Part shown: one piece after another, positions 2,738 to 53,415 of the stretch
Layout of the letters: each line of letters opens with the position of its first letter
How positions within the stretch are numbered: position 1 is the first letter of the stretch
Source of the DNA: Halobellus inordinatus
GTDB lineage: Archaea > Halobacteriota > Halobacteria > Halobacteriales > Haloferacaceae
Direction of reading: 5' to 3'
DNA length: 64,000 nucleotides
Assembly (NCBI RefSeq): GCF_024464655.1
Contig: NZ_JANHAV010000009.1
Location: forward strand, 1 to 64,000
Translations under genes and position numbers: made by a program
Notes under the pieces: generated by a model
Database searches by the model: none
What the model was told of the DNA's origin: nothing
The model's input: only the letters and a program-made list of their open reading frames with translations

Positions 2738-3781
2738 TCAGTCGTCCGAGGCCGCTTCGGCGGCTTCGGCGTCTTTCTCGCTGGCGAGTCGCGAGGCGAC
2801 GTCGGTGATCAGGTCCTCCTGACCGCCGACGACCTCCATCTCGCCGAGTTCGATCAGGATCTCGCGGGGGTCGATGTCGTACTTTTCGCCCGCGCGACGG
2901 GTGTGCCGGAGGAACGAGGAGTAGACGCCGGCGTAGCCCAAAAGCAGCGAGTCGTTGTCGAGTTCGGGCATCTCGTCGTCGGAGATCATCGGGACGAGGA
3001 CGTCCTCGGCGGCGTCCATCGTGCCGAAGAAGTCCGGGTTGACGTCGTAGCCGGCTTTCTCCAGTGTACCGACGAGCACCTCCATCTGGGCGTTGCCCGA
3101 GCCCGCACCGAGCCCACGTAGACAACCGTCGATCGTCACCGCGCCGGAATCGAGCGCCGCGAGCGAGTTGCCGATCGCGAGCCCGAGGTTGTTGTGAGCG
3201 TGAAAGCCCACGTCGATCGAGAGTTCGTCGGCGAGCAGACTGACGCGGTCGCGGACGTCGCTCGGCAGCAACGCGCCGGCGGAATCCATCACGTAGACGG
3301 CGTCGGCGCCGTAGCTCTCCATCAGTTGGGCCTGTTCGAGAACCGTTTCGGGCTCTGCCATATGCGAGAGCATCAGGAGGCCGTTCGCTTCGAGGCCCTG
3401 GTCTTTGACGTACTCGAAGTGCTCCTCGGAGACGTCGGCCTCGGTGACGTGGGTCGCGATCCGGCAGATGTCCGCCCCGTGATCGATCGCCATATCGATC
3501 TCCTCGATCGTACCGATGCCGGGCAGCATCAGGACCGACAGCTCGGTGTCAGTGAGTTCCGGCGTCACGGCGTCGAGGTACTCCTCGGTGCTGGCCGCCG
3601 AGAAGCCGTAGTTGATCGAGGAGCCGCCCATTCCGTCGCCGTGAGAGACCTCGACGACGTCCATCTCGGCCGCGTTCAGGGCGCCCGCGACGTCTGCCAT
3701 CTCCTCGGGCGTGAACTGGTGGTCGACGGCGTGCATCCCGTCGCGGAGCGTCATATCGACCAGCCGGACCGAATCAGTCAT
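2738..3781 (-). CDS. mhpE: 4-hydroxy-2-oxovalerate aldolase
   Basis: This 347-residue DRE-TIM metallolyase splits 4-hydroxy-2-oxopentanoate into pyruvate and acetaldehyde. The N-terminus shows the family signature [20 protein letters not shown], with the catalytic Arg/Asp pair and an active-site His. The metal-binding motif [14 protein letters not shown] follows. The C-terminal helical communication domain that docks on the dehydrogenase is present ([21 protein letters not shown]). Start [10 protein letters not shown] was chosen because it overlaps the end of the upstream dehydrogenase gene by 8 nt, which implies translational coupling and matches the bifunctional DmpFG complex that channels acetaldehyde. 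Confidence 0.92.
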
Positions 3782-4715
3782 CGCTGACACCTCCGATGGG
3801 GCTGGCGTCGACTGGCTGCTGTGCGATCCGTTCGGCGGCACCGAGTGCTGCGCTTGTCATAATGTCGAGGTTGCCCGCGTACGGCGGGAGATGTTGGCCC
3901 TCGCCCTCGACTTCGATCATCGTGGTGAGGATGATCGAGTCGCCGAGGTCGAAGGCGACGTCGTCTTGGTCTTTGACTGTCGGTTCGAGCGTGACCTCGT
4001 AGCCGGGGACGTACGTCTGGACGTCCGCTTCGATACGGGAGACAGAGTCGCGGACCTCGTCGACGTCCGTGTTCTCGTCGACCATCGTGTAGACGGTGTT
4101 CCGCATCATAATCGGCGGCTCCGCCGGGTTCAGGGTGATGATCGCCTTCCCGTCGTCGGCCCCGCCGACCTCTTCGAGTCCCGCCGCGGTCGTCTGGGTG
4201 AACTTGTCGATGTTACCTCTCGTGCCCGGGCCGGCGCTCTTCGAGGCGATGTGCGAGATCATCTCGGCGTACTCGACGTTCGAGACGCGGTTGACGGCGT
4301 GGACGAGCGGGATCGTCGCCTGGCCGCCGCAGGTGACCATATTGATGTTCTGCGTCTCGCCGATCACGTCGTCGAGGTTGACGACGGGAACGGTGTAGGG
4401 ACCGATCGCGGCCGGCGTGAGATCGATCGCGAACAGACCGAGGTCCTCGTAGACCGGCGCGTGCTGTTCGTGAATGCCCGCGCTCGTGGCCTCGAAGACG
4501 ATGTCGAACTCGTCTGCGTGTTCTTCGATGCTGTCGATGCCTTCGGTGCCGACGTCGATCCCCTGCTCGACGGCGGCCTGGAGTCCTTCGGACTCCTCGA
4601 CCGGGAAGATACCTACCATCCGCTGGAGGTCGATATTCTCACTCCGGTCGAGAATCTTGTACATCAGGTCGGTTCCGATGTTACCCGGACCGACTATCGC
4701 CGCATCTAACGACAT
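3774..4715 (-). CDS. mhpF: Acetaldehyde dehydrogenase (acetylating), DmpF/MhpF type
   Basis: The 313-residue enzyme oxidises acetaldehyde from the aldolase to acetyl-CoA with NAD+ and CoA. It opens with a Rossmann nucleotide motif ([10 protein letters not shown]) right after the chosen start MSLDAAIVG. The catalytic Cys is C129 in [15 protein letters not shown]. The C-terminal part holds the family stretch [16 protein letters not shown]. The upstream in-frame extension is not family-like and was rejected. It is the first gene of a two-gene operon with the aldolase (8-nt overlap), the last two steps of the meta-cleavage pathway. Confidence 0.92.
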
Positions 4716-8491: not shown

Positions 8492-9469
8492 CTACTCGAT
8501 CAAGTCGTAGAGGTTGTCTGCGAAGATGTCTGCGCGCGTGTCGGAGTCGACGTCCATCCGTTCGACCGCGTCGATCGTCACGTCGACGGTACGACGGCCC
8601 CGCTCGGGGCTGAACGGGTAGTCAGTGCCGAAGACGACGTTCCCGTCGTTGAAGAACGAGTCGGCGCACTCAAGCGCCGGCGTGGACCCCGAGACGGCCG
8701 TGTCGGCGTAGAACTTCTTGAAGTACTCCTCGGCCGGCTGCGAGAGCGACGCGGCGTTCTCGTGGAAACCGGGGTAGTTCTTGGGATACGCCTGCCGCTG
8801 CTGATAGAACATCTCGATGCGCCGCCCGTAGAAGGGGACCATTCCCCCGCCGTGGTGCGAGACGATCTTCAGGTCGGGATATGCTTCCATCACGCCGCCG
8901 AACACCAGCCGCGACAGTGCGAGCGTCGTGTCGAACGGCCAGCCAAATAGACGGTGTTCCATATACTCGGAGGCCCAGTCGTACCACTCCCAGAGTTGCG
9001 GATGGATCCACAGCGGGGTGTCGGTTGCCTCGGCCTCCTCGAAGAGCGGCCAGAACTGCTCGTCGTCGATCGGGCGACCGTCGACGTTCGAGAAGATCTG
9101 AACGCCGGCCACATCCAGGTCGCCGACGCAGCGGTCGAACTCCGCGAGGAACGCCTCGCTCACCATCGGGAGCGTCGCGACCGGGATGAACGAGTCGGGG
9201 TGCTCGTCGGCGAGCCGACGGATCTCGTCGTTGGCGAGGCGCGTGATCTCCAGCGCGAGATCGTGATCCATCCCCTGGAACATCGTCGGGAGCGCGAGCG
9301 TGATGATCTGCTTGTCGACGCCGTAGTCGGCCATATCCTGCTTTCGCTGTTCGACGTCCCAGAGGAACTCCGGCCGACCGGAGAGGCCCTGAAAGCCGAA
9401 CTCGTCGGTCAGTTTCTCGAAGAAGTGCTCGGTCAGGATGTGCGTATAGCCGTCGACGATTTCTGGCAT
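8492..9469 (-). CDS. Amidohydrolase-2 family decarboxylase (ACMSD / CHMS decarboxylase-like)
   Basis: This 325-residue metal-dependent TIM-barrel protein of the amidohydrolase-related family includes aminocarboxymuconate-semialdehyde decarboxylase, gamma-resorcylate decarboxylase and 5-carboxy-2-hydroxymuconate-semialdehyde decarboxylase. The HxH motif is missing its first His (here GYTHIL), as in several decarboxylases. The ligands WIHPQLWEWYDW, IVSHHGGGMVPFYGRRIEMF and FGTDYPFSPERG (the Asp) are visible. Beside an extradiol dioxygenase and a semialdehyde dehydrogenase it suggests that the ring-cleavage product carries a carboxyl group removed non-oxidatively, as in the protocatechuate 2,3-cleavage or 3-hydroxyanthranilate routes. 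Confidence 0.8.
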   Translation of the reverse strand: MPEIVDGYTHILTEHFFEKLTDEFGFQGLSGRPEFLWDVEQRKQDMADYGVDKQIITLALPTMFQGMDHDLALEITRLANDEIRRLADEHPDSFIPVATLPMVSEAFLAEFDRCVGDLDVAGVQIFSNVDGRPIDDEQFWPLFEEAEATDTPLWIHPQLWEWYDWASEYMEHRLFGWPFDTTLALSRLVFGGVMEAYPDLKIVSHHGGGMVPFYGRRIEMFYQQRQAYPKNYPGFHENAASLSQPAEEYFKKFYADTAVSGSTPALECADSFFNDGNVVFGTDYPFSPERGRRTVDVTIDAVERMDVDSDTRADIFADNLYDLIE

Positions 9470-9567: not shown

Positions 9568-10335
9568 TCATTGCCGGGCGTACTTGATGTCCAAGGCGAG
9601 TTCGTGGGCGGTGCTCTCGACCTCCGCGGTGATGTCGTCGTCGAAGCCGGCGTTCCCGAGTCGCTTCGTGGGCGCGGAGATGCTGATCGCGCCGAGAACG
9701 TCACCGCCGAGTTTGACCGGCGCACCGATACACGTGAGCCCCTCCGTGCGCTCCTCGTTGTCCGTCGCGTATCCACGTTCCCGGATCCGATCGAGCTCTG
9801 TGAAGAGTGTCTCGCGGTCGGTGATGGTGTTCTCGGTCGCCTCCGGCAGCCCCCACTCGTCGACGATCGCCTCGACGCGCTCGCGAGGGAGTGACGCGAG
9901 GATGGCCTTCCCGATGCCGATGTTGTGCAGGCGAAGTCGGTATCCGACGTGCGTATCGAGGTTGACAGCGTAACTCCCGCGGGATTGATAGAGATACACC
10001 GCGCGGCCGTTCTCCTCGGTCGCCAGGTTCGCCAACATTCCGGTGTCGGTCGCGAGTTGGTCGATCTTCGACCGCCCGTACTGATACAGCGGTGAGCGAC
10101 TGCGAACGTGGCCACCCAGGGAGAGAAACTTCAGGCTGAGCGCGTACTCGTCGCCGTTCTTTTCCACGTATCCGTGCTCTCTGAGCGTACTGAGGTGGTT
10201 GTGAATGCCGCTCTTGCTCATCTCGAGGCGATCTTCGAGTTCGCTGAGCCGAAAGCCGTCGTCGGTATCGAGCGTCTCGATCAACTCCAACGTCTTCTCG
10301 CTGGTCCGTACGGGGTGGTTCGCCTTCTTGGTCAT
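9568..10335 (-). CDS. IclR-family transcriptional regulator
   Basis: This 255-residue regulator has an N-terminal winged helix (KTLELIETLDTDDGFRLSELEDRLEMSKSGIHNHLSTLREHGYVEK) and a C-terminal GAF-like effector domain (GMLANLATEENGRAVYLYQ ... GIGKAILASLPRERVEAIVDEWGLP ... CIGAPVKLGGDVLGAISISAPTKRLG). Start MTKKANHPVRTSEKTLE fits family members; the longer reading adds nine residues. IclR proteins commonly control aromatic and sugar-acid catabolism by binding a pathway intermediate, so it is the obvious local regulator of the meta-cleavage block. Its direct targets are not marked by any palindrome I could identify with confidence. Confidence 0.88.
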   Translation of the reverse strand: MTKKANHPVRTSEKTLELIETLDTDDGFRLSELEDRLEMSKSGIHNHLSTLREHGYVEKNGDEYALSLKFLSLGGHVRSRSPLYQYGRSKIDQLATDTGMLANLATEENGRAVYLYQSRGSYAVNLDTHVGYRLRLHNIGIGKAILASLPRERVEAIVDEWGLPEATENTITDRETLFTELDRIRERGYATDNEERTEGLTCIGAPVKLGGDVLGAISISAPTKRLGNAGFDDDITAEVESTAHELALDIKYARQ

Positions 10336-40367: not shown

Positions 40368-40904
40368 TCAGGACAATCGGGAGAGGTAGAACCACCGATG
40401 TGACCAGATCTGATAGAGCGCCGAGCCTGCGATGATCGCGAGGAACGCGCTCGCGAAGACGAGCGGGTCGACCGCAGCGAACAACGGCACGCCGGTGAGC
40501 GAGAGCACGACGAGAAACAGCGCGAGCGTTCCTAGCGTCCGGTAGTACGTCGCCCAGGTGACGCCGTACTTCGTCACGACCTCCATATACACGTCGACCG
40601 TGCGTGCCTCCTTGCGGAGTCTGATCGTCTTTCGATTACGATCGTAGTCGACGACGCCGGCCGAATCCAGTCGAGGCAGATGACTCTGGTGCAGCGAGAT
40701 GTAGACACTATCGCGGATGTTCCGCGGCGCCGGTGATTCCCCCGTCTCGATTTCGGCGATCTCCTCGGCGAGGTCCCGGAGCATCACCTCGCGCCCGCGA
40801 TCCTGGAGGTACTTGATCGCGTACCGACGTCGATCGTTGCGAAGTAAGTCGTGAATATCCGTTTCTGAGATTCTTTGTCTCGTGGATTGTGATCTATAGC
40901 TCAT
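40368..40904 (-). CDS. DUF7344-type winged-helix membrane protein, left copy
   Basis: The 178-residue protein starts MSYRSQSTRQRISETDIHDL and is nearly identical in layout to the protein at 52885: a winged helix (LLRNDRRRYAIKYLQDRGREVMLRDLAEEIAEIE ... VYISLHQSHLPRLDSAGVVDYDRNRKTIRL), the linker VDVYMEVVTKYGVTWATYYR, then two transmembrane helices. It is likely a membrane-bound regulator. It is convergent with the frameshifted zinc-ribbon gene, the same arrangement as at the right edge of the island. Its stop codon is part of the MITE A target duplication. Confidence 0.8.
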   Translation of the reverse strand: MSYRSQSTRQRISETDIHDLLRNDRRRYAIKYLQDRGREVMLRDLAEEIAEIETGESPAPRNIRDSVYISLHQSHLPRLDSAGVVDYDRNRKTIRLRKEARTVDVYMEVVTKYGVTWATYYRTLGTLALFLVVLSLTGVPLFAAVDPLVFASAFLAIIAGSALYQIWSHRWFYLSRLS

Positions 40905-40940
40905 ACCTGCCCTCGGGTAATTATTCATTGTTCACACAAG

Positions 40941-40950: not shown

Positions 40951-41021
40951 TCATCTTCAAGAAAACAAAGCAGAAGCGCTGAACGTGTCGTTAACCGCGG
41001 ATCGATCCTCTTGGTATCTCA

Positions 41022-41100
41022 TACTGTCGGACAGCAGTTCGTGAACTATGTTGGCACCCACGGGGTGCCGATACGCTTCACATCGTTCTGTCCGACAGTA
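41022..41100. mobile_element. 79-bp MITE, copy B
   Basis: Same ends as copy A and a perfect nested hairpin GGCACC-CACG-GGTGCC. TCA duplications at 41019-41021 and 41101-41103. It lies in the intergenic region upstream of the first exported-protein gene. Confidence 0.78.
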
Positions 41101-41275
41101 TCACTCGGCGGCAGCAGGATCGTCTTTCCACTCTGATTTGCCGTTCAATGTCGTCATTCCCCGCTCGCCTCGGATCCGTCGATCTCCGAAGTCGATTCCG
41201 TTGTTTCTGCAGTCCACGAGCCTCCGAAACGTGGCGTTAAGCGCCCGTGAGCCCCGTTAGCCAGGAAAACTCGCA

Positions 41276-41286
41276 ATTAGCTATGG
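41276..41286 (+). promoter_or_regulatory. ATTAGCTATGG motif, copy 2
   Basis: The motif lies 44 nt before the structured leader of the first island gene. A TTAAGCG element is found about 40 nt upstream at 41237. The same motif precedes other island genes. Confidence 0.4.
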
Positions 41287-41319
41287 GGGTATGAGGGGTG
41301 GGGGTAGAGTGTGGAAACA

Positions 41320-41406
41320 CCCACTCAGGGCGCCGCGGCGGACCAGCGACGATCGGTCCTCGCGACGGCGGTTCGACTCCGCCGGTGGGCATCCCCCAAC
41401 GGGGGA
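41320..41406 (+). ncRNA. Cloverleaf 5' leader 1 (T-arm mimic plus start-proximal hairpin)
   Basis: The closing helix is CCCACT (41320-41325) with GGTGGG (41384-41389). It encloses CGCC/GGCG (41331-41340), GGACC/GGTCC (41340-41344 with 41355-41359) and GGCGG-TTCGACT-CCGCC (41367-41383), which is identical to a tRNA T-arm consensus. A separate hairpin CCCCC-AAC-GGGGG (41393-41405) ends 10 nt before the ATG. Leaders 2 and 3 have the same plan with different paired bases. No anticodon arm is present, so it is not a tRNA gene. It is called ncRNA as a cis-acting RNA element. Confidence 0.6.
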
Positions 41407-41415
41407 ACACAAACC

Positions 41416-42663
41416 ATGACAGAACGGTTCGAAATCTCACGACGGAAGGCACTGGCGGCTCTTGGAACGATCGGCGTCGCGTCTGCGGGCGCAGGACTCG
41501 GTACGAGCGCGCTGTTCACGGACGAGGAGTCGTTCGAGAATAACAACCTCGTGGCTGGTTCCCTCGACCTGTTCGTCGACTACTGGACGTCGTCGGATCA
41601 GGGCAGCTACGGAAGCAGTGTCGACAGTGGACGGGTGGACGGCGACGGAGACGCGATGTACGCGTACGAACTCTCCGACGTCAAGCCGGGCGACAGCGGT
41701 GCGCTGGCGTTCTGCCCGAAGATCGTCGACAACCCCGCCTGGCTCTGGCTGGGTTCGGGCGGCCTCGTCGACTACGAGAACGGCCAGACGGAACCCGAGA
41801 TGGACGCCGACGCGAGTGGCGGCGGCTCGATCGGCTCACCAAACGACGGCGCGGGGTCCGGCGAACTGAGCGAGTCTATCCAGGTCACGATCTCGTACGC
41901 GGAAGGCATCACCCCCATCGAAGAGGACGGAGACCTCGTCGGCTTCGAGTGCGTCGACCCGGTGGCGCTGAACAATCCCGAGGACTACACCCTCGCGGAC
42001 CTCAGCGATGAACTCCTCTTCGGCTTCCTGATGGACGTCGCGCGGGGCGAAGAAGGCCCGCAGCCGTACCCCGGCTCGCCCGACGTCGAGACGCAGACCG
42101 GCCCGTGTCTCTGCATCGAGTGGGAGCTCCCGATCGAGGTCGGCAACGAGATCCAGACCGACGCCCTCGACTTCGACTTCACCTTCGTCGCCGAGCAGTC
42201 GCGGCACAACGACTCGCCGATGAGCCCCTTCGTCGACGTCGACGCGTCGAGCACGGTCGTCACCCAGCCCGCTGACGCACAGGCCGGCTACCCCGGCTCC
42301 TTCACCCTCCGCGCGAACGAGAACGTCGTCGAAGTCGACCTCTCCGGCCTCGCGGAGTCCTTCCCCGCTGACACCGCCGGTATGGACAACGTCGGCGTGT
42401 TCCTCGGCGATGCAGGCGGGAACTACCAGGTCGAGGTGAAGCTCCAGTCCGACGGCACGTTCGTCCTCGCGAACAACAACGCTGGGGCATCGGTCGGTGA
42501 CTTCAGCCCGGTTCTCGACGGCGACATAATCCGGATGGACACGGCCGGATTCGGCTCCGTCGGCGTCATCGCGAACATCGTCGACGGCAACGCGAGCACC
42601 ACGCAGGCGGTCGCGACACCCGGCGACGACAGGCCGTGGCAGGGCCCGCTCTACGTCATCTGA
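41416..42663 (+). CDS. SipW-dependent-type exported protein, TasA/camelysin-like, with extra C-terminal domain
   Basis: The 415-residue protein starts MTERFEISRRKALAALGTIG with a Tat-like SRRK and a hydrophobic stretch ending in TSALFTDEES, the hallmark leader of TasA/camelysin proteins. The core runs VDYWTSSD..., ELSDVKPGDSGALAFCPKIVDNPAWLWLG and the end signature CIEWELPIEVGNEIQTD then FTFVAEQSRHND near residues 235-275. A further beta-rich domain of about 140 residues follows (STVVTQPADAQAGYPGSFTL...). Cys pairs are conserved with its neighbours. It is the first gene of the island and is led by a cloverleaf leader. A fibre subunit or cell-surface role is inferred. Confidence 0.82.
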   Translation: MTERFEISRRKALAALGTIGVASAGAGLGTSALFTDEESFENNNLVAGSLDLFVDYWTSSDQGSYGSSVDSGRVDGDGDAMYAYELSDVKPGDSGALAFCPKIVDNPAWLWLGSGGLVDYENGQTEPEMDADASGGGSIGSPNDGAGSGELSESIQVTISYAEGITPIEEDGDLVGFECVDPVALNNPEDYTLADLSDELLFGFLMDVARGEEGPQPYPGSPDVETQTGPCLCIEWELPIEVGNEIQTDALDFDFTFVAEQSRHNDSPMSPFVDVDASSTVVTQPADAQAGYPGSFTLRANENVVEVDLSGLAESFPADTAGMDNVGVFLGDAGGNYQVEVKLQSDGTFVLANNNAGASVGDFSPVLDGDIIRMDTAGFGSVGVIANIVDGNASTTQAVATPGDDRPWQGPLYVI

Positions 42664-42689
42664 GCCGGCGATTCCTGCACTGCGCTTCC

Positions 42690-42763
42690 CCCACCCCGGT
42701 GGACCGGCCCGACGGCGGGTCGTGACGGTTCGACTCCGTCGGTGGGTCTTCCCCGAACGGGGA
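42690..42763 (+). ncRNA. Cloverleaf 5' leader 2
   Basis: The closing helix is CCCACC (42690-42695) with GGTGGG (42741-42746). Inside are CCGG-TGGA-CCGG (42696-42707), CCCG-ACGG-CGGG (42708-42719) and the T-arm mimic GACGG-TTCGACT-CCGTC (42724-42740). The downstream hairpin TCCCC-GAAC-GGGGA is at 42750-42763. The stem bases differ from leaders 1 and 3 but stay paired, while loop TTCGACT is unchanged. Confidence 0.62.
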
Positions 42764-42794
42764 GCGTCCGCGGCCGGACGACGAACACAGACCA

Positions 42795-44249
42795 ATGACA
42801 GAACACGAATTCGACATCTCGCGGCGGAAAGTCCTCGGTGCACTCGGTGCGGTCGGCGTGGCCTCGGCCGGCGCCGGCCTCGGCACGAGCGCGCTGTTCA
42901 CGGACGACGAAACGTTCGAAAATAATCAGCTGACGGCGGGGAGTCTCGACCTCAAGCTCGACTACAAGTCGACGTACAGGGGCGGCCCCGGTCGGCTCGA
43001 CGCGATCAAAGCGATGGGCTACCCGGACGCCGAGGACCTCGGCGACGGCGTCTACCTCCTCGATCAGGCCCCCTCGCCGGCGGATATGCAGGCGTGGGAA
43101 GACCTCGTGACGGGCGAGGAGTTCCAGTTCTGTTCGCCGGAGGCCGACGAGTTCCTCGTCAACGGCGACGGCATCCCAGTGTTCACCCTCGAAGACGTCA
43201 AGCCGGGCGACTACGGCGAGGTGACGATCAGCATTCACATCTGTGACAACCCCGGCTGGCTAGAGATGGTCGGCGGCCTCCGCTCGAACGCAGAGATGGG
43301 TATGACCGAGCCCGAGATGGGCGTCGACGACCTCAACGCGGGCGAGATCGGCGAACTCGCCGACCGAATGCAGGTGCGAGTCTGGTACGACGAAGACTGC
43401 GACAACGTCTACGAGCCGACCGGCACCGGTGAACAGCAGGAACTGGAGGTCGCGCTCGTCAGCGACGTCTCCGGGTCGATGGGCGGCTCGCCGCTCTCGG
43501 CTCTGAAGACCGCCGCGAACGGGTTCGTCGACAACCTCTCCAGCCCGGACGAGGCCGCCGCCATCTCGTTTTCGACCACTGCGACGACCGACCAGGAACT
43601 GACGACGAACTACCAGGCGGTCAAGAACGCCATCAACAGCTACTCCGCGGGCGGCGGGACCTCGATCGCCGCAGGTATCGCCGAGGGAGCTGACGAACTG
43701 CTCAACGGCACGAACGCCACCGCTAGCGCGTCGAAAGTGATGATCCTGCTGAGCGACGGTCAGTCCAACGCATCGGCTGCACTCAGTGAGGCCGACGACG
43801 CCAAGGTCGCGGGCATCCGCATCTTCACGATCGCGCTCGGCAACGCAGACACGAGCCTCCTCGAAGACATCGCGACCTCGCCCGACGACGCGTTCATCGC
43901 GCCCAACCCCGCCGATCTCGACACCGTCTACGCGGAGATCGCGCAGGTCGTCCTCGCGGGCGAACTGCTGATCGCCGAAGGATCACTCGCGGACGTGATG
44001 GCGCTCCTCGAAGAGGGCGTCGAGCTCGACGGCGACCGCTCCGCCGAGGGTCGACAGCCGTACCCCGGCCAGACCACCCAGTGCGTCGGCTTCGAGTGGG
44101 AGCTCCCCATCGAGGTCGGCAACGACGTCCAGACGGACAGCGTCTCCTTCGACGTCGGCTTCAACGCCGTCCAGTCGCGCCACAACGAGATGGGCGACAG
44201 CCCCGGGGTCGCTGGCGGGATAAACGAGACGAACAACACGTCGCCGTAG
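42795..44249 (+). CDS. SipW-dependent-type exported protein with inserted von Willebrand A domain
   Basis: The 484-residue protein starts MTEHEFDISRRKVLGALGAV, with its leader ending TSALFTDDET. The TasA-like part (LEDVKPGDYGEVTISIHICDNPGWLEM ... VRVWYDEDCDN) is interrupted at about residue 215 by a vWA domain: DVSGSMGGSPLS is the MIDAS, with SFSTTATTD, GGGTSIAAGI and ILLSDGQSN, running to about 385. The TasA end returns as CVGFEWELPIEVGNDVQTDS and SRHNE. A metal-dependent adhesive domain is thus held in a loop of a fibre-type fold. It is preceded by cloverleaf leader 2 and follows the first gene by 131 nt. Confidence 0.87.
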   Translation: MTEHEFDISRRKVLGALGAVGVASAGAGLGTSALFTDDETFENNQLTAGSLDLKLDYKSTYRGGPGRLDAIKAMGYPDAEDLGDGVYLLDQAPSPADMQAWEDLVTGEEFQFCSPEADEFLVNGDGIPVFTLEDVKPGDYGEVTISIHICDNPGWLEMVGGLRSNAEMGMTEPEMGVDDLNAGEIGELADRMQVRVWYDEDCDNVYEPTGTGEQQELEVALVSDVSGSMGGSPLSALKTAANGFVDNLSSPDEAAAISFSTTATTDQELTTNYQAVKNAINSYSAGGGTSIAAGIAEGADELLNGTNATASASKVMILLSDGQSNASAALSEADDAKVAGIRIFTIALGNADTSLLEDIATSPDDAFIAPNPADLDTVYAEIAQVVLAGELLIAEGSLADVMALLEEGVELDGDRSAEGRQPYPGQTTQCVGFEWELPIEVGNDVQTDSVSFDVGFNAVQSRHNEMGDSPGVAGGINETNNTSP

Positions 44250-44270
44250 CACGGGTGCTGGCGACGTTCA

Positions 44271-44359
44271 ACCTCGTGCCGGTGCTTCGCAACCTCGGTT
44301 GCGAGCGGCCACGGCCGCGACGCGGTTCGACTCCGCGACGGGGTGTCCCCCGCAGGGGA
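44271..44359 (+). ncRNA. Cloverleaf 5' leader 3
   Basis: The closing helix is ACCTCGT (44271-44277) with ACGGGGT (44338-44344), seven pairs including one G-U. It encloses TCGCAACC/GGTTGCGA (44287-44304), GCGGCC/GGCCGC (44305-44318) and the T-arm mimic CGCGG-TTCGACT-CCGCG (44321-44337). The downstream hairpin TCCCC-CGCA-GGGGA is at 44346-44359, 8 nt before the ATG. The helix sequence is fully different from leaders 1 and 2, yet the pairing is kept. Confidence 0.62.
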
Positions 44360-44367
44360 ACTCACCT

Positions 44368-45948
44368 ATGACAGACAACGATCAGACGTACGCACTCTCG
44401 CGACGCAAAGTGCTCGGAGCCCTCGGTGCGGTCGGCATCGCTTCGGCGGGCGCCGGCCTCGGCACCACCGCGTACTTCAACGACACCGAATCGTTCGAGA
44501 ACAACACGCTGACTGCCGGGACGCTTGATCTCAAGATCGACTGGCAGCAGTCCTACTACGGGCCGACGGAGTCCTGGGAGTACGTCAACGCGCACCCGGA
44601 CCACGACGGCGACGGCGAGCAGTCGATCGAGATCGGCGGCGAAACGTACGCCTACGGCGACGAGAGCCGTAATCTCGTCGATTACCTCACCTGTTCGAAC
44701 TTCGATCAGAACTACGCGGCGAGCTACAACGGCCAGGAGCACCTGATCGAACTCGACGACGTGAAGCCCGGCGACAAAGGCGAGGTCACGTTCAGCCTGC
44801 ACCTCTGTGACAACCCGGGGTACATCTGGATGCGTGCTGCGGACATCGTCGAGAGCGGCGGCGTGAACACCGAGCCCGAACGGGTCGCTGAAGGCGGCGA
44901 CGCGAACGAGGCGAACCTCGCGGAGAACGTCGACGTGCGGATGTGGTACGATCAGAACTGCGACAACCGCCTCAACAGTGCGGACATTATGCTCACGATC
45001 GACGTCTCCGGGTCGATGCTGTACAGCCAGTACGGCGGCGTCGTCAACGACGACCCGATTCTCGGCTACGACGAGACGACCAAGATCGACCTCGTCGAGG
45101 TCGGTGCGGCGGCTCTCGTGCAGGAGCTCATCGACACCGACGCGGACGCGCGTGTCGGCGTCGTCTACTTCAACGGCTCCTCCGGCGGCGACCCCCACAT
45201 CGAACTCGGGTCGCCGCTGACGTCAGATATCGCGGGTCTCATCGCGCCCAGCGGCGCGCTCAACGGCCTCCGTCAGGTCCTCGCCGACATCGTCGGCGCG
45301 AGCACGACGGACCCCTCGGGCGGCGCCGGCATCAGCACGGGGACGTACATCGGCGAGGGCGTCCTCGAAGCCCAGGCGGAACTCGCAAACAACGGCAGAG
45401 TCGACACGACGCCGATCAACGTCGTTCTCTCGGACGGCAACTCCTTCCAGGGTGGCGACGGCACGCCGTACGCCTCCCCGACGAGTGCCGCAGACGACGC
45501 TCGCGCGTCCTCGCCCGCACCCGCGACGAACGTCTACACCATCGGTGTCGGTGCCGACACGAACGACACCATCCTCACCGAGATGGCCGGTGCAGCGGGT
45601 AGCGCCGGCGATGACCCCGCATACTTCCGGGACGTCCCGGACCCAACGAACCTCGTGTCGACGTTCCAGACGCTGGCGGACCTGTTCACCAGCGAAGTCG
45701 TCTTCTTCGAGGGGACGCTCGCAGAAGCGCTGGGTGCGCTCGACGGCGACGGCATCCACCTCGACGGCGACCGCACGAAGCCCGAGACGACCGAGTGCTT
45801 CGAGCCCGAGGTCGGCCACTGCATCGGATTTGCGTGGTCCCTGCCCCTCGAAGCCGGGAACGAACTCCAGGGCGACTCGGTCGCGTTCGACCTGTCGTTC
45901 TACACCGAGCAGTGCCGCCACAACGACGGCGTCGAGCAGACGGCATAG
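44368..45948 (+). CDS. Second SipW-dependent-type exported protein with inserted vWA domain
   Basis: The 526-residue protein starts MTDNDQTYALSRRKVLGALG, leader end TTAYFNDTES. TasA-like strands (LDDVKPGDKGEVTFSLHLCDNPGYIWM; VRMWYDQNCDNRL) precede a vWA domain with MIDAS DVSGSMLYS at about residue 212, running to about 435 (VVYFNGSSGG; GAGISTGTYIGEGV; NVVLSDGNSF). The end is CIGFAWSLPLEAGNELQGDS and EQCRHND. The vWA is about 50 residues longer than in the gene upstream and different in sequence, so the two are old paralogues. It follows cloverleaf leader 3. Confidence 0.87.
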   Translation: MTDNDQTYALSRRKVLGALGAVGIASAGAGLGTTAYFNDTESFENNTLTAGTLDLKIDWQQSYYGPTESWEYVNAHPDHDGDGEQSIEIGGETYAYGDESRNLVDYLTCSNFDQNYAASYNGQEHLIELDDVKPGDKGEVTFSLHLCDNPGYIWMRAADIVESGGVNTEPERVAEGGDANEANLAENVDVRMWYDQNCDNRLNSADIMLTIDVSGSMLYSQYGGVVNDDPILGYDETTKIDLVEVGAAALVQELIDTDADARVGVVYFNGSSGGDPHIELGSPLTSDIAGLIAPSGALNGLRQVLADIVGASTTDPSGGAGISTGTYIGEGVLEAQAELANNGRVDTTPINVVLSDGNSFQGGDGTPYASPTSAADDARASSPAPATNVYTIGVGADTNDTILTEMAGAAGSAGDDPAYFRDVPDPTNLVSTFQTLADLFTSEVVFFEGTLAEALGALDGDGIHLDGDRTKPETTECFEPEVGHCIGFAWSLPLEAGNELQGDSVAFDLSFYTEQCRHNDGVEQTA

Positions 45949-47044: not shown

Positions 47045-48169
47045 ATGACGAGTGAGCGCAGCGCGCTGCGAACGGTAGCGAACGTACTCGGCGTGCTCTT
47101 GCTCGTCGGTCTCGTCGCGCCGTTCGTCGTCTACGGCGTCCCGCAGGTGGCCGGCGCAGACTACAGTTTCGTCGTCCTCTCCGGCAGTATGGAACCCGCG
47201 ATGAGCCCCGGCGACGCGATCGTCGTCCGTGAGGCCGCGCCGGGTGAGGTCACAGAACGGGACGTCATCACCTTCCGGACCGACAGCGAGACGCCGACGA
47301 CCCACCGCGTCATCGACGTCATCGAACGGGACGGGACCGTCGCCTACGTGACGAAAGGCGACGCCAACGAGGACCCAGACAGCGGAACCGTCTCTCACGA
47401 GCAGGTGCTCGGCGAGGTGCTGGTGACGCTCCCGCTGCTCGGCTACGTCGTCCGATTCGTCAACACCCCCGTCGGCTTCGCCGTGGTCGTCGTCGGGCCG
47501 TTGGTCGCCTTCGTCATCTCGGAGGTCTGGACGCTCGTCCGATCGGTCGACGGCGAGGGGGTCGACAGCGAGTCGACCGACAGCGAATCGGCAGACAGCG
47601 AATCAGTAGACAGCGAGACAGATGCGGCGGCGAGCGGCGGTACGTCGCCGCAGGGAGCAGAAGCCGAGGAGAGAGACGACACGCCGGCGTCGGCCGAGCC
47701 AGCGTCGACCGACTCGACGCCAGCCGAATCGGGGTCGACGTCGGCGACTGCGTCGTTCACCCTGACGCGGTCGAGCCTCCAACTCCTGGGCCTGGTGTTC
47801 GCGTTCTACCTCCCGTACAGCGCCTACGTCGCCTACACCACGATCGCAGCGTGGACGATCGCGGTCGCGATCGCGACCGCGATCGGGCTCCTGTTCGTCG
47901 TCGGCCTGTACGTCGGTACCCGCGGCGACGAGAACGCAAACGGGGAGGCCAACAGCGACGCGGACGGCAGCGTGGAGAGTTCCACCGAGGAGGCCGACAG
48001 CGACGCGGACGGCAGCGTGGAGAGTTCCACCGAGGAGGACGACAGCGACGTGCCGAGTGAAGTTCCGATGCCGCCGGCCGGTGAAGACGGCGCCGACGCC
48101 GTCTATCCCGACCGATCGACCGCTGCCGACGGCGGCAGCGAAGTCAGGGGGCGAGACGACGATGCGTGA
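47045..48169 (+). CDS. SipW-like (ER-type) signal peptidase I with long acidic insert
   Basis: The 374-residue S26B peptidase has an N-terminal transmembrane helix, catalytic S48 in VLSGSMEPAMSPGD, H87 in PTTHRVIDV and Asp candidates in TKGDANEDPDSG, that is Ser-His-Asp in place of the bacterial Ser-Lys pair. After a second helix (about 140-160) comes an acidic repeat region (DSESTDSESADSES), then two more helices (YSAYVAYTTIAAWTIAVAIA...) and another acidic repeat tail. It is predicted to remove the leaders of the neighbouring TasA-like proteins. Its stop overlaps the next start by 8 nt. Confidence 0.88.
   Translation: MTSERSALRTVANVLGVLLLVGLVAPFVVYGVPQVAGADYSFVVLSGSMEPAMSPGDAIVVREAAPGEVTERDVITFRTDSETPTTHRVIDVIERDGTVAYVTKGDANEDPDSGTVSHEQVLGEVLVTLPLLGYVVRFVNTPVGFAVVVVGPLVAFVISEVWTLVRSVDGEGVDSESTDSESADSESVDSETDAAASGGTSPQGAEAEERDDTPASAEPASTDSTPAESGSTSATASFTLTRSSLQLLGLVFAFYLPYSAYVAYTTIAAWTIAVAIATAIGLLFVVGLYVGTRGDENANGEANSDADGSVESSTEEADSDADGSVESSTEEDDSDVPSEVPMPPAGEDGADAVYPDRSTAADGGSEVRGRDDDA
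47951..48040 (+). repeat. Two tandem 45-bp coding repeats in the signal peptidase tail
   Basis: Units 47951-47995 and 47996-48040 differ at only the first and last codons and encode (N/D)SDADGSVESSTEE(A/D). This in-frame duplication is very recent, and copy number may vary. Confidence 0.85.
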
Positions 48170-52884: not shown

Positions 52885-53415
52885 TCACGAGAGCTGATTC
52901 AGATACAGCCAGCGACGCGACCACAGTTGATAGAGCGTCGAGCCGGCGATGATCGCGAGAAACACGCTGGCGAAAATGAGCGGGTCGACCGCGGAGACGA
53001 GCGGTACCTCGGTGAGCGACAGGACGACGAGAAAGAGCGAGACCGTGCCGAGCGCCCGATAGTACGTCGCCCACGTCACGCCGTACTTCGTGACGACCTC
53101 CATATACACGTCGACTGCGCGGGCGCTGTCTTTGAGTCGGATCGTCTTTCGGTCCCGGTCGTAGTCGACGACGCCGGCGTCGTCGAGCTTCGGGAGGTGA
53201 TTCTGGTGCAGCGAGATGTAGACGCTGTCGCGGATGTTCCGCGGCGGCGGCGACTCCTCAGTCTCCAGTTCGGCGATGTCTTCGGCGAGATCACGAAGCA
53301 TCACCTCGCGCCCGTGTTCCTGCAAGCACTTGATCGTGTGTCGCCGTCGGTCGTTCCGGAGGAGGTCGTGGATGTCCGTCTCCGAAAGCCCCGTCTGCAT
53401 CGATCGGATACTCAT
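52885..53415 (-). CDS. DUF7344-type winged-helix membrane protein, right copy
   Basis: The 176-residue protein starts MSIRSMQTGLSETDIHDLLR. It is paralogous to the protein at 40368 along its full length, with a winged helix (LRNDRRRHTIKCLQEHGREV ... VYISLHQNHLPKLDDAGVVDYDRDRKTIRL), the linker VDVYMEVVTKYGVTWATYYR and two transmembrane helices. It is probably a membrane-bound regulator of the island or its paired gene. The promoter region carries the same GATTACTATAT stretch as the left copy. Confidence 0.8.
   Translation of the reverse strand: MSIRSMQTGLSETDIHDLLRNDRRRHTIKCLQEHGREVMLRDLAEDIAELETEESPPPRNIRDSVYISLHQNHLPKLDDAGVVDYDRDRKTIRLKDSARAVDVYMEVVTKYGVTWATYYRALGTVSLFLVVLSLTEVPLVSAVDPLIFASVFLAIIAGSTLYQLWSRRWLYLNQLS

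Follow-up and report, generated by a model that had tools for sequence, protein, structure and literature searches.

tRNA elbow-like elements before surface-protein genes of Halobellus inordinatus and other haloarchaea: candidate tRNase Z processing signals in mRNA

Three tRNA-like elements at a surface-protein locus

We analysed a stretch of 64,000 nucleotides (nt) from the haloarchaeon Halobellus inordinatus (assembly GCF_024464655.1, contig NZ_JANHAV010000009.1, positions 1 to 64,000 of the forward strand), referred to below as the window, which holds a cluster of genes for surface proteins with SipW-type signal peptides. Each of the first three of these genes has a 5' leader with an element that resembles part of a transfer RNA (tRNA) and that we call a t-element: a closing helix (P1), a D-loop-like GG, one or two inner hairpins, a T-arm made of T-stem and T-loop, and two nucleotides, N73 and N74, followed in the leader by a hairpin of C and G runs (P4). 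The elements and their genes are listed with their scores for two covariance models, one of the whole family (the family model) and one of the t-elements that precede 5S ribosomal RNA (rRNA) (the 5S model), E being the expectation value.

41319..41392, plus strand: t-element 1; P1 41319-41324/41385-41390, D-loop-like GG 41327-41328, inner hairpin, T-stem 41366-41371/41379-41384, T-loop TTCGACT 41372-41378, N73-N74 41391-41392; family model 58.3 bits, E 7.5e-9; 5S model 40.9 bits, E 3.5e-9, the genome's second-best match to that model
41393..41405, plus strand: P4 hairpin CCCCC-AAC-GGGGG of leader 1, directly 3' of N74, from sequence and fold
41416..42663, plus strand: gene 1, protein of 415 amino acids with a SipW-dependent-type signal peptide (TIGR04088, 20.1 bits over cut-off)
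42689..42749, plus strand: t-element 2, between genes 1 and 2; P1 42689-42694/42742-42747, GG 42698-42699, two inner hairpins, T-stem 42723-42728/42736-42741, T-loop 42729-42735, N73-N74 42748-42749; family model 56.8 bits, E 1.5e-8; 5S model 23.2 bits, E 3.4e-4 (window)
42750..42762, plus strand: P4 hairpin TCCCC-GAAC-GGGG of leader 2, from sequence and constrained fold
42795..44249, plus strand: gene 2, 484 amino acids, SipW-type signal peptide and von Willebrand A (VWA) domain (TIGR04088, 27.3 bits; PF00092, 2e-25)
44271..44346, plus strand: t-element 3, between genes 2 and 3; P1 44271-44276/44339-44344, GG 44281-44282, two inner hairpins, T-stem 44321-44325/44333-44337, T-loop 44326-44332, N73-N74 44345-44346; family model 44.6 bits, E 4e-6; 5S model 24.1 bits, E 1.8e-4 (window)
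44347..44358, plus strand: P4 hairpin CCCC(C)-GCA-GGGG of leader 3, from sequence and constrained fold
44368..45948, plus strand: gene 3, 526 amino acids, SipW-type signal peptide, camelysin-like start and VWA domain (TIGR04088, 32.8 bits; PF12389, 7.8e-8)

The original prediction, made from the sequence alone, had described before all three genes a closing helix and a T-arm of 5 base pairs (bp) with the loop TTCGACT, and the T-arm stems that it gave (GGCGG/CCGCC, GACGG/CCGTC and CGCGG/CCGCG) stand, as does the C/G hairpin before each ATG, a CCCC/GGGG pairing whose G-run ends about 10, 32 and 9 nt 5' of the ATGs at 41416, 42795 and 44368. The closing helices are present too, with the 3' strand directly after the T-arm, but their extents had to be redrawn: comparison gives 6 bp (ACCCAC/GTGGGC in leader 1, CCCCAC/GTGGGT in leader 2 and ACCTCG/CGGGGT in leader 3), the outermost pair being open in leaders 1 and 2. 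Exact GGTTCGACTCC occurs in the window in the three leader T-arms and at no other place. A tRNA gene was rejected as an explanation, because ARAGORN made no tRNA call and Rfam 15, riboswitch and leader families included, gave no match at gathering score in the window, and because the inner part of the element is variable; a permissive Rfam scan returned a weak likeness to selenocysteine tRNA (tRNA-Sec, RF01852) in two leaders, at 19 bits against a cut-off of 47, and nothing else.

Distribution, core architecture and covariation

A starting pattern made of the T-arm and the C/G hairpin matched 55 of 293 genomes of the haloarchaeal order, with Halobellus, Halorubrum, Haloarchaeobius, Halobacterium and Natronococcus as named matches, and the reversed control pattern matched 0 among the genomes listed. 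Scattered bacterial contigs also matched, where the pattern lay mostly on the ends of tRNA or transfer-messenger RNA. The family model, built from 69 aligned copies, finds the element in 96 of the 293 genomes and in 43 of the order's 87 genera; a phylum-wide search with it gave a single match outside the order, a weak one (E 1.4e-4). A covariance search, the kind of check that the original prediction had proposed, recovers homologues with covarying stems before SipW-type genes, and the absence of such homologues, which had been set in advance as grounds for abandoning the idea, was not what we saw. The element is a real and widespread haloarchaeal RNA family, which we found neither in Rfam 15 nor in the literature that we searched.

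Across the family, the core consists of a 6-bp P1 (mostly ACCCAC/GTGGGT among relatives), the motif NNNGGNR, 0-2 optional hairpins, the T-stem, the loop TTCGAYT, N73 and mostly U74 (107 of 122 leaders have T at this place), and it is often followed by TCCCC-n-GGGGA. In most copies a sixth pair is added to the 5-bp T-stem, giving 12 stacked pairs together with P1, and the length of this helix is fixed: pairs 1-12 are paired at 78-100% (pair 12 at 78%), pair 13 at 51% and pair 14 at 21%. Because pairing drops after pair 12, the family helix has the length found in tRNA (7 plus 5 bp). With P1 picked by pairing alone, 98 of the 99 compact copies had the D-loop-like GG, and 89 had it at an offset of 1-3, compared to 23.6 expected. 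The inner stretch varies from about 9 to more than 60 nt and contains 0-2 hairpins. Like tRNA (RF00005) and tRNA-Sec, the element has the T-arm sequence and a 12-bp acceptor plus T helix, but unlike them it lacks both a D stem and a conserved anticodon arm. The conserved core is the tRNA "elbow" and not the cloverleaf first proposed: leaders 2 and 3 each have two inner hairpins, leader 1 has a single long one and many relatives have none; with inner hairpins optional, the cloverleaf cannot serve as the defining form.

P4 follows P1 at a distance of 0-1 nt in 107 of the 119 relatives that were scored, and its G-run typically ends 6-11 nt 5' of the ATG. It is missing in otherwise perfect copies (L215, L216, L217, L165, L166, L167), and in the clear cases among these (L165, L167, L215, L216, L217) the AUG lies within 5-20 nt. 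The suggestion that the last hairpin regulates in cis by hiding a ribosome-binding stretch has lost support with its absence from several such copies, and P4 as an obligatory hairpin over a Shine-Dalgarno site is rejected on the same ground.

That bases change while pairing is kept is borne out by a covariation test on the 69 sequences and 12 pairs, with 500 shuffles and slid-partner controls. Compensatory double changes occur in 10 of the 12 pairs, cells changed on both sides number 63 compared to 14.4 in the shuffles (0/500), and 96.3% of the cells are paired, compared to 88.1% when shuffled (0/500) and 33-52% with partners slid. P1 was located by pairing, and its pairing percentages are therefore biased upward; T-stem pairs 3-6 and pairs 13-14 played no part in selecting copies, and pair 6 still covaries (CG 89, GC 8). 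At T-stem pairs 3-5 there are 17 G-U against 1 A-C, which identifies the sense RNA strand as the functional one.

These counts bear directly on the idea that the elements work at the level of DNA, as remnants of tRNA attachment (att) sites or as cassette borders that shuffle surface-protein genes. The tandem arrays of related surface genes would suit it, and the 3' ends of tRNA genes are common att sites. It is largely refuted by the compensatory changes and by the strand asymmetry, G-U pairs being confined to one strand (17 to 1), and it also has to contend with a fixed orientation and distance to the next gene and with the fact that neither ARAGORN nor Rfam called a tRNA in the window; we find it scarcely credible. 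Degenerate tRNA genes or att sites are likewise ruled out by the missing tRNA call, the covariation and the fixed gene distance.

Resemblance to the t-element of 5S rRNA

According to two reports (PMC4326828, PMC3296008), which cite Holzle et al. (2008, 2012), a t-element 5' of 5S rRNA in Haloferax volcanii is cut by tRNase Z to yield the 5S 5' end. The genome of H. inordinatus has before its 5S gene the stretch ACCGAC ACTGG TGT...GATGG TTCGAAT CCATC A GTCGGC AT, directly followed by 5S, and the same layout precedes 5S in fifteen other loci, with P1 ACCGAY in most and the GG at offset 3 in nearly all. In these 5S t-elements the sixth T-stem pair covaries (UA 7, CG 4), the element ends exactly 2 nt 5' of 5S, and N74 is always T.

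We trained the 5S model on 15 5S t-elements only. Run on the window with no filters, it places the three leaders as the top three matches (40.9, 24.1 and 23.2 bits; next 17.4), and genome-wide (3.4 Mb) the genome's own 5S t-element comes first at 49.4 bits, followed by the leaders at ranks 2-4 (40.9, 22.9 and 22.9 bits) and then by a partial match at 22.7. By this ranking, nothing else in the genome resembles 5S t-elements as closely as the leaders do. Over 39 other loci, most of the model's 100 matches lie on leaders. Both kinds of element have a 6-bp P1, NNNGG, 12 stacked pairs, an optional inner hairpin and a TTCGANT T-loop, then two nucleotides with U74, which stand before 5S in the one kind and before the predicted product in the other. 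The leaders differ in preceding protein-coding genes in operons and in usually being followed by a CCCC/GGGG hairpin. At the outermost pair (column pair 1/64), moreover, the 5S t-elements of nearly all 15 species have an A.C mismatch, and the elements in messenger RNA (mRNA) mostly have A-U.

RNase P and tRNase Z are also known to cleave t-elements in vivo where these flank CRISPR RNA (crRNA) in H. volcanii (PMC4326828). These engineered elements are, like the leaders, tRNA-like elements within a transcript (PMC4326828, PMC4946936), but they are artificial and 5S-derived, whereas the leaders are natural mRNA elements. A paper on transcript processing in Halobacterium salinarum and H. volcanii contains nothing on tRNase Z or RNase P (PMC8303175). 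Both enzymes have been reported to act on t-elements (PMC4326828), and this, with the same recognition features, would also fit a reading in which the excised element is itself the product, a small trans-acting tRNA-like RNA cut on both sides by RNase P and tRNase Z. Only the elbow and the helix are kept, and the variability of the inner sequence and length (about 9 to more than 60 nt, 0-2 hairpins) disfavours a conserved function in trans, so that we consider this reading improbable. The original prediction had also offered a response to a tRNA-binding factor. The link to something that recognises tRNA gains support from the 5S architecture, but a responsive switch is less likely than a cleavage signal, because the architecture is shared with a published tRNase Z processing signal before 5S rRNA.

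Position of the elements relative to genes

Of 195 copies that were selected on the RNA motif and nothing else, 126 stand before a gene of the SipW GAGLGT type and 15 before one of the GTGAFT type, and we estimate by eye that ~95% of haloarchaeal copies precede genes for SipW/TasA-type or other secreted proteins, the exceptions being bacterial contigs, mis-framed open reading frames and a few unrelated genes. Of 122 copies, 91 begin no more than 60 nt after the stop codon of a preceding gene in the same orientation and have no TATA-like box. As in tRNA punctuation, the elements appear, from gene order and spacing, to lie between genes of a presumed single transcript.

For the converse test, SipW genes were selected by protein family alone. 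Eighteen internal genes carry the element, all in gaps of 66-147 nt, whereas it precedes 3 of 22 first genes (internal versus first genes, Fisher p = 0.026) and 0 of 8 coupled genes (gap <10 nt). The concentration in one gap class is a stronger feature than the contrast between internal and first genes. Homologous SipW/VWA operons on plasmids of Haloarcula halophila and Halorientalis marina (L244, L246) have 10-nt gaps and no t-element, which indicates that the element is gained or lost along with the intergenic space.

An intercistronic site near the AUG, and the lack of the element from tightly coupled genes, are also what one would expect of a translation aid, an elbow mimic that contacts the ribosome and helps it to re-initiate at the operon's following gene. 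But no anticodon-like part is conserved, the distance to the AUG ranges from about 5 to 50 nt, and the untranslated 5S rRNA has the same element; we rate this proposal as very improbable, slightly below the excised product.

Other features of the locus lie around the three genes.

41272..41287, plus strand: candidate operon promoter cgcaattagctatggg, ~32-47 nt 5' of t-element 1
47045..48169, plus strand: SipW-like signal peptidase I in the same gene cluster, without a t-element (TIGR02228, 106.7 bits; NF046067, 1.6e-30)

Halobellus-type loci (L044, L050, L058, L067, L114) have the sequence cgcaattagctatggg too, at a similar distance before their homologous first genes. Further upstream of the operon, a perfect 14-bp inverted repeat, ATACTGTCGGACAG / CTGTCCGACAGTAT, occupies 41021-41034 and 41088-41101, ~54 nt apart, and is possibly the end of a small mobile element or an operator. 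Two similar DUF7344 proteins, candidate regulators, are encoded on the minus strand on either side of the surface-protein cluster (40371-40928 and 52888-53415).

Counterparts in viruses and organelles

Mitochondrial transcripts are punctuated by tRNAs, and plant mitochondria have t-elements. Both, like the leaders, are tRNA-shaped signals between genes of polycistronic RNA; unlike in mitochondrial punctuation, no real tRNA is encoded here, the setting is that of archaeal operons and viruses and not of organelles, and the cleavage is predicted.

We searched viral contigs (IMG/VR) with the same pattern. Three phage contigs, L270 and L280 (guanine plus cytosine content 0.58-0.60) and L294 (0.53), have 8-12 minihelix copies, one per small gene. 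Each repeat is an uninterrupted 12-bp T-loop minihelix with N73 and T74 and then TCCCCATTAGGGG. In the three contigs what comes after each minihelix is CTTCCCCATTAGGGG or something close to it, and then AGGG and the small gene, and the helices of the three contigs are unrelated in sequence (GCCCGCC-GGGGG-TTCGATT-CCCCC-GGCAGGT; CTAGGGG-CAGGG..CTCCTAG; GTCTGCA-CAGGG..TGCAGAC). One minihelix contig is a tailed phage by its portal and protease, and the portal has distant relatives mainly in mycobacterial and arthrobacter phages. Compact t-elements with a bulged GG, then a hairpin and then a gene are found in L297 and L081 (apparently Thermosynechococcus-linked) and in L284 (IMGVR_UViG_2974794068); their hairpins differ in sequence (TCCGC/GCGGA, TCGGC/GCCGA, CCGGC), so the place of the hairpin is kept while its sequence changes. 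The 5S model scores several viral-contig elements. For viral and haloarchaeal elements we report a shared layout and make no claim of common descent. This common layout favours a processing signal over a SipW-specific switch.

A haloarchaeal chromosome (L173, G257:C1:2289000-2300000) has t-elements and C/G hairpins before virus-like genes on the minus strand, with matches at 2995-3063, 3978-4038, 8628-8723 and 9935-9995; one protein there matches phrog_13083 at 348 bits, and an ERCC4-type nuclease is nearby. This region is probably a provirus that uses the same signal. A phage search with gene 2 as query gave no match. The tRNA-like genes reported for the haloviruses HF2 and Hardycor2 are a separate matter, being tRNA fragments of the attP type.

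A probable processing signal in mRNA

From the fold, its conservation, the sense strand, the intercistronic location and the architecture common to a published tRNase Z substrate, we infer that the leaders are mRNA t-elements at which tRNase Z cuts the operon transcript into single-gene mRNAs, and we put the probability of this at roughly two in three. An anticodon-less mimic of the tRNA elbow and acceptor helix would be set at gene boundaries within the mRNA, and tRNase Z, perhaps with RNase P, would cut after N73 or N74, at the base of P4, so that every gene of the operon would end up on an mRNA of its own. An RNase Z is encoded in the H. inordinatus genome, and the spacing and U74 of the leaders match the 5S case, where the product starts after N73-N74. 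The downstream mRNA would then begin at P4, or a few nucleotides from the AUG where P4 is missing; its new 5' end would bear a phosphate, and P4 could shield it from 5' exonuclease. Such an mRNA would suit the leaderless initiation favoured by haloarchaea; in H. volcanii, 72% of transcripts are leaderless (PMC4983044). Each abundant surface subunit would thereby be freed from transcript-wide stoichiometry.

Several observations weigh against this. If free energy is the only criterion, other folds are preferred in leaders 2 and 3, by 5.8 and 1.9 kcal/mol, and the folding z-scores of leaders 1-3 are -1.4, -0.3 and -2.2; folding energy is where the structural case is weakest, and for this reason the case rests on comparison. 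The genome-wide E of the 5S model for leaders 2 and 3 is only about 0.02, where a chance origin of the matches is nonetheless unlikely given their rank and location. Only about a third of the family-selected SipW genes carry the element, and gene 1 of the window carries it although it lies 3' of the candidate promoter, where no splitting is needed. Holzle et al. are said to have found in 2012 that other tRNA-like elements of H. volcanii remained uncut in vitro. A paper on transcript processing in Halobacterium salinarum and H. volcanii contains nothing on tRNase Z or RNase P (PMC8303175).

The competing folds of leaders 2 and 3 would fit an uncut cis-regulatory RNA, in which an elbow-reading protein (a tRNA-modifying enzyme or a dedicated regulator) or a ligand controls translation, perhaps via P4 and G-rich sequence close to the start codon. 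The element is close to the AUG (5-30 nt), the P4 G-run typically ends 6-11 nt from the ATG, a place for a possible weak Shine-Dalgarno site, and the tie to one functional gene class is very tight. Yet perfect copies exist without P4, first genes, the natural site for a regulatory leader, mostly lack the element (3/22), the same fold is a processing signal at 5S rRNA, and similar viral elements precede unrelated genes. We consider such regulation unlikely, if the most plausible of the alternatives to tRNase Z cleavage.

Implications

Structured leaders have been called untypical for haloarchaea (PMC4983044). The processing reading makes a direct prediction, that 5' ends lie at N73-N74 of about 200 elements. 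More tentatively, t-element and short hairpin may form a general operon-punctuation system, either inherited or separately invented, that cuts polycistronic mRNA in TasA/SipW surface-fibre operons and in viruses of archaea, probably of cyanobacteria and probably of actinobacteria; we regard this wider system as possible without leaning towards it. To our knowledge, little has been established on how archaea set differing subunit levels within one operon. If the leaders are indeed cut, tRNase Z would have a role in mRNA maturation, archaeal genetics would gain a compact cleavage part, and tRNA punctuation, known from organelles, would extend to archaeal and viral mRNA.

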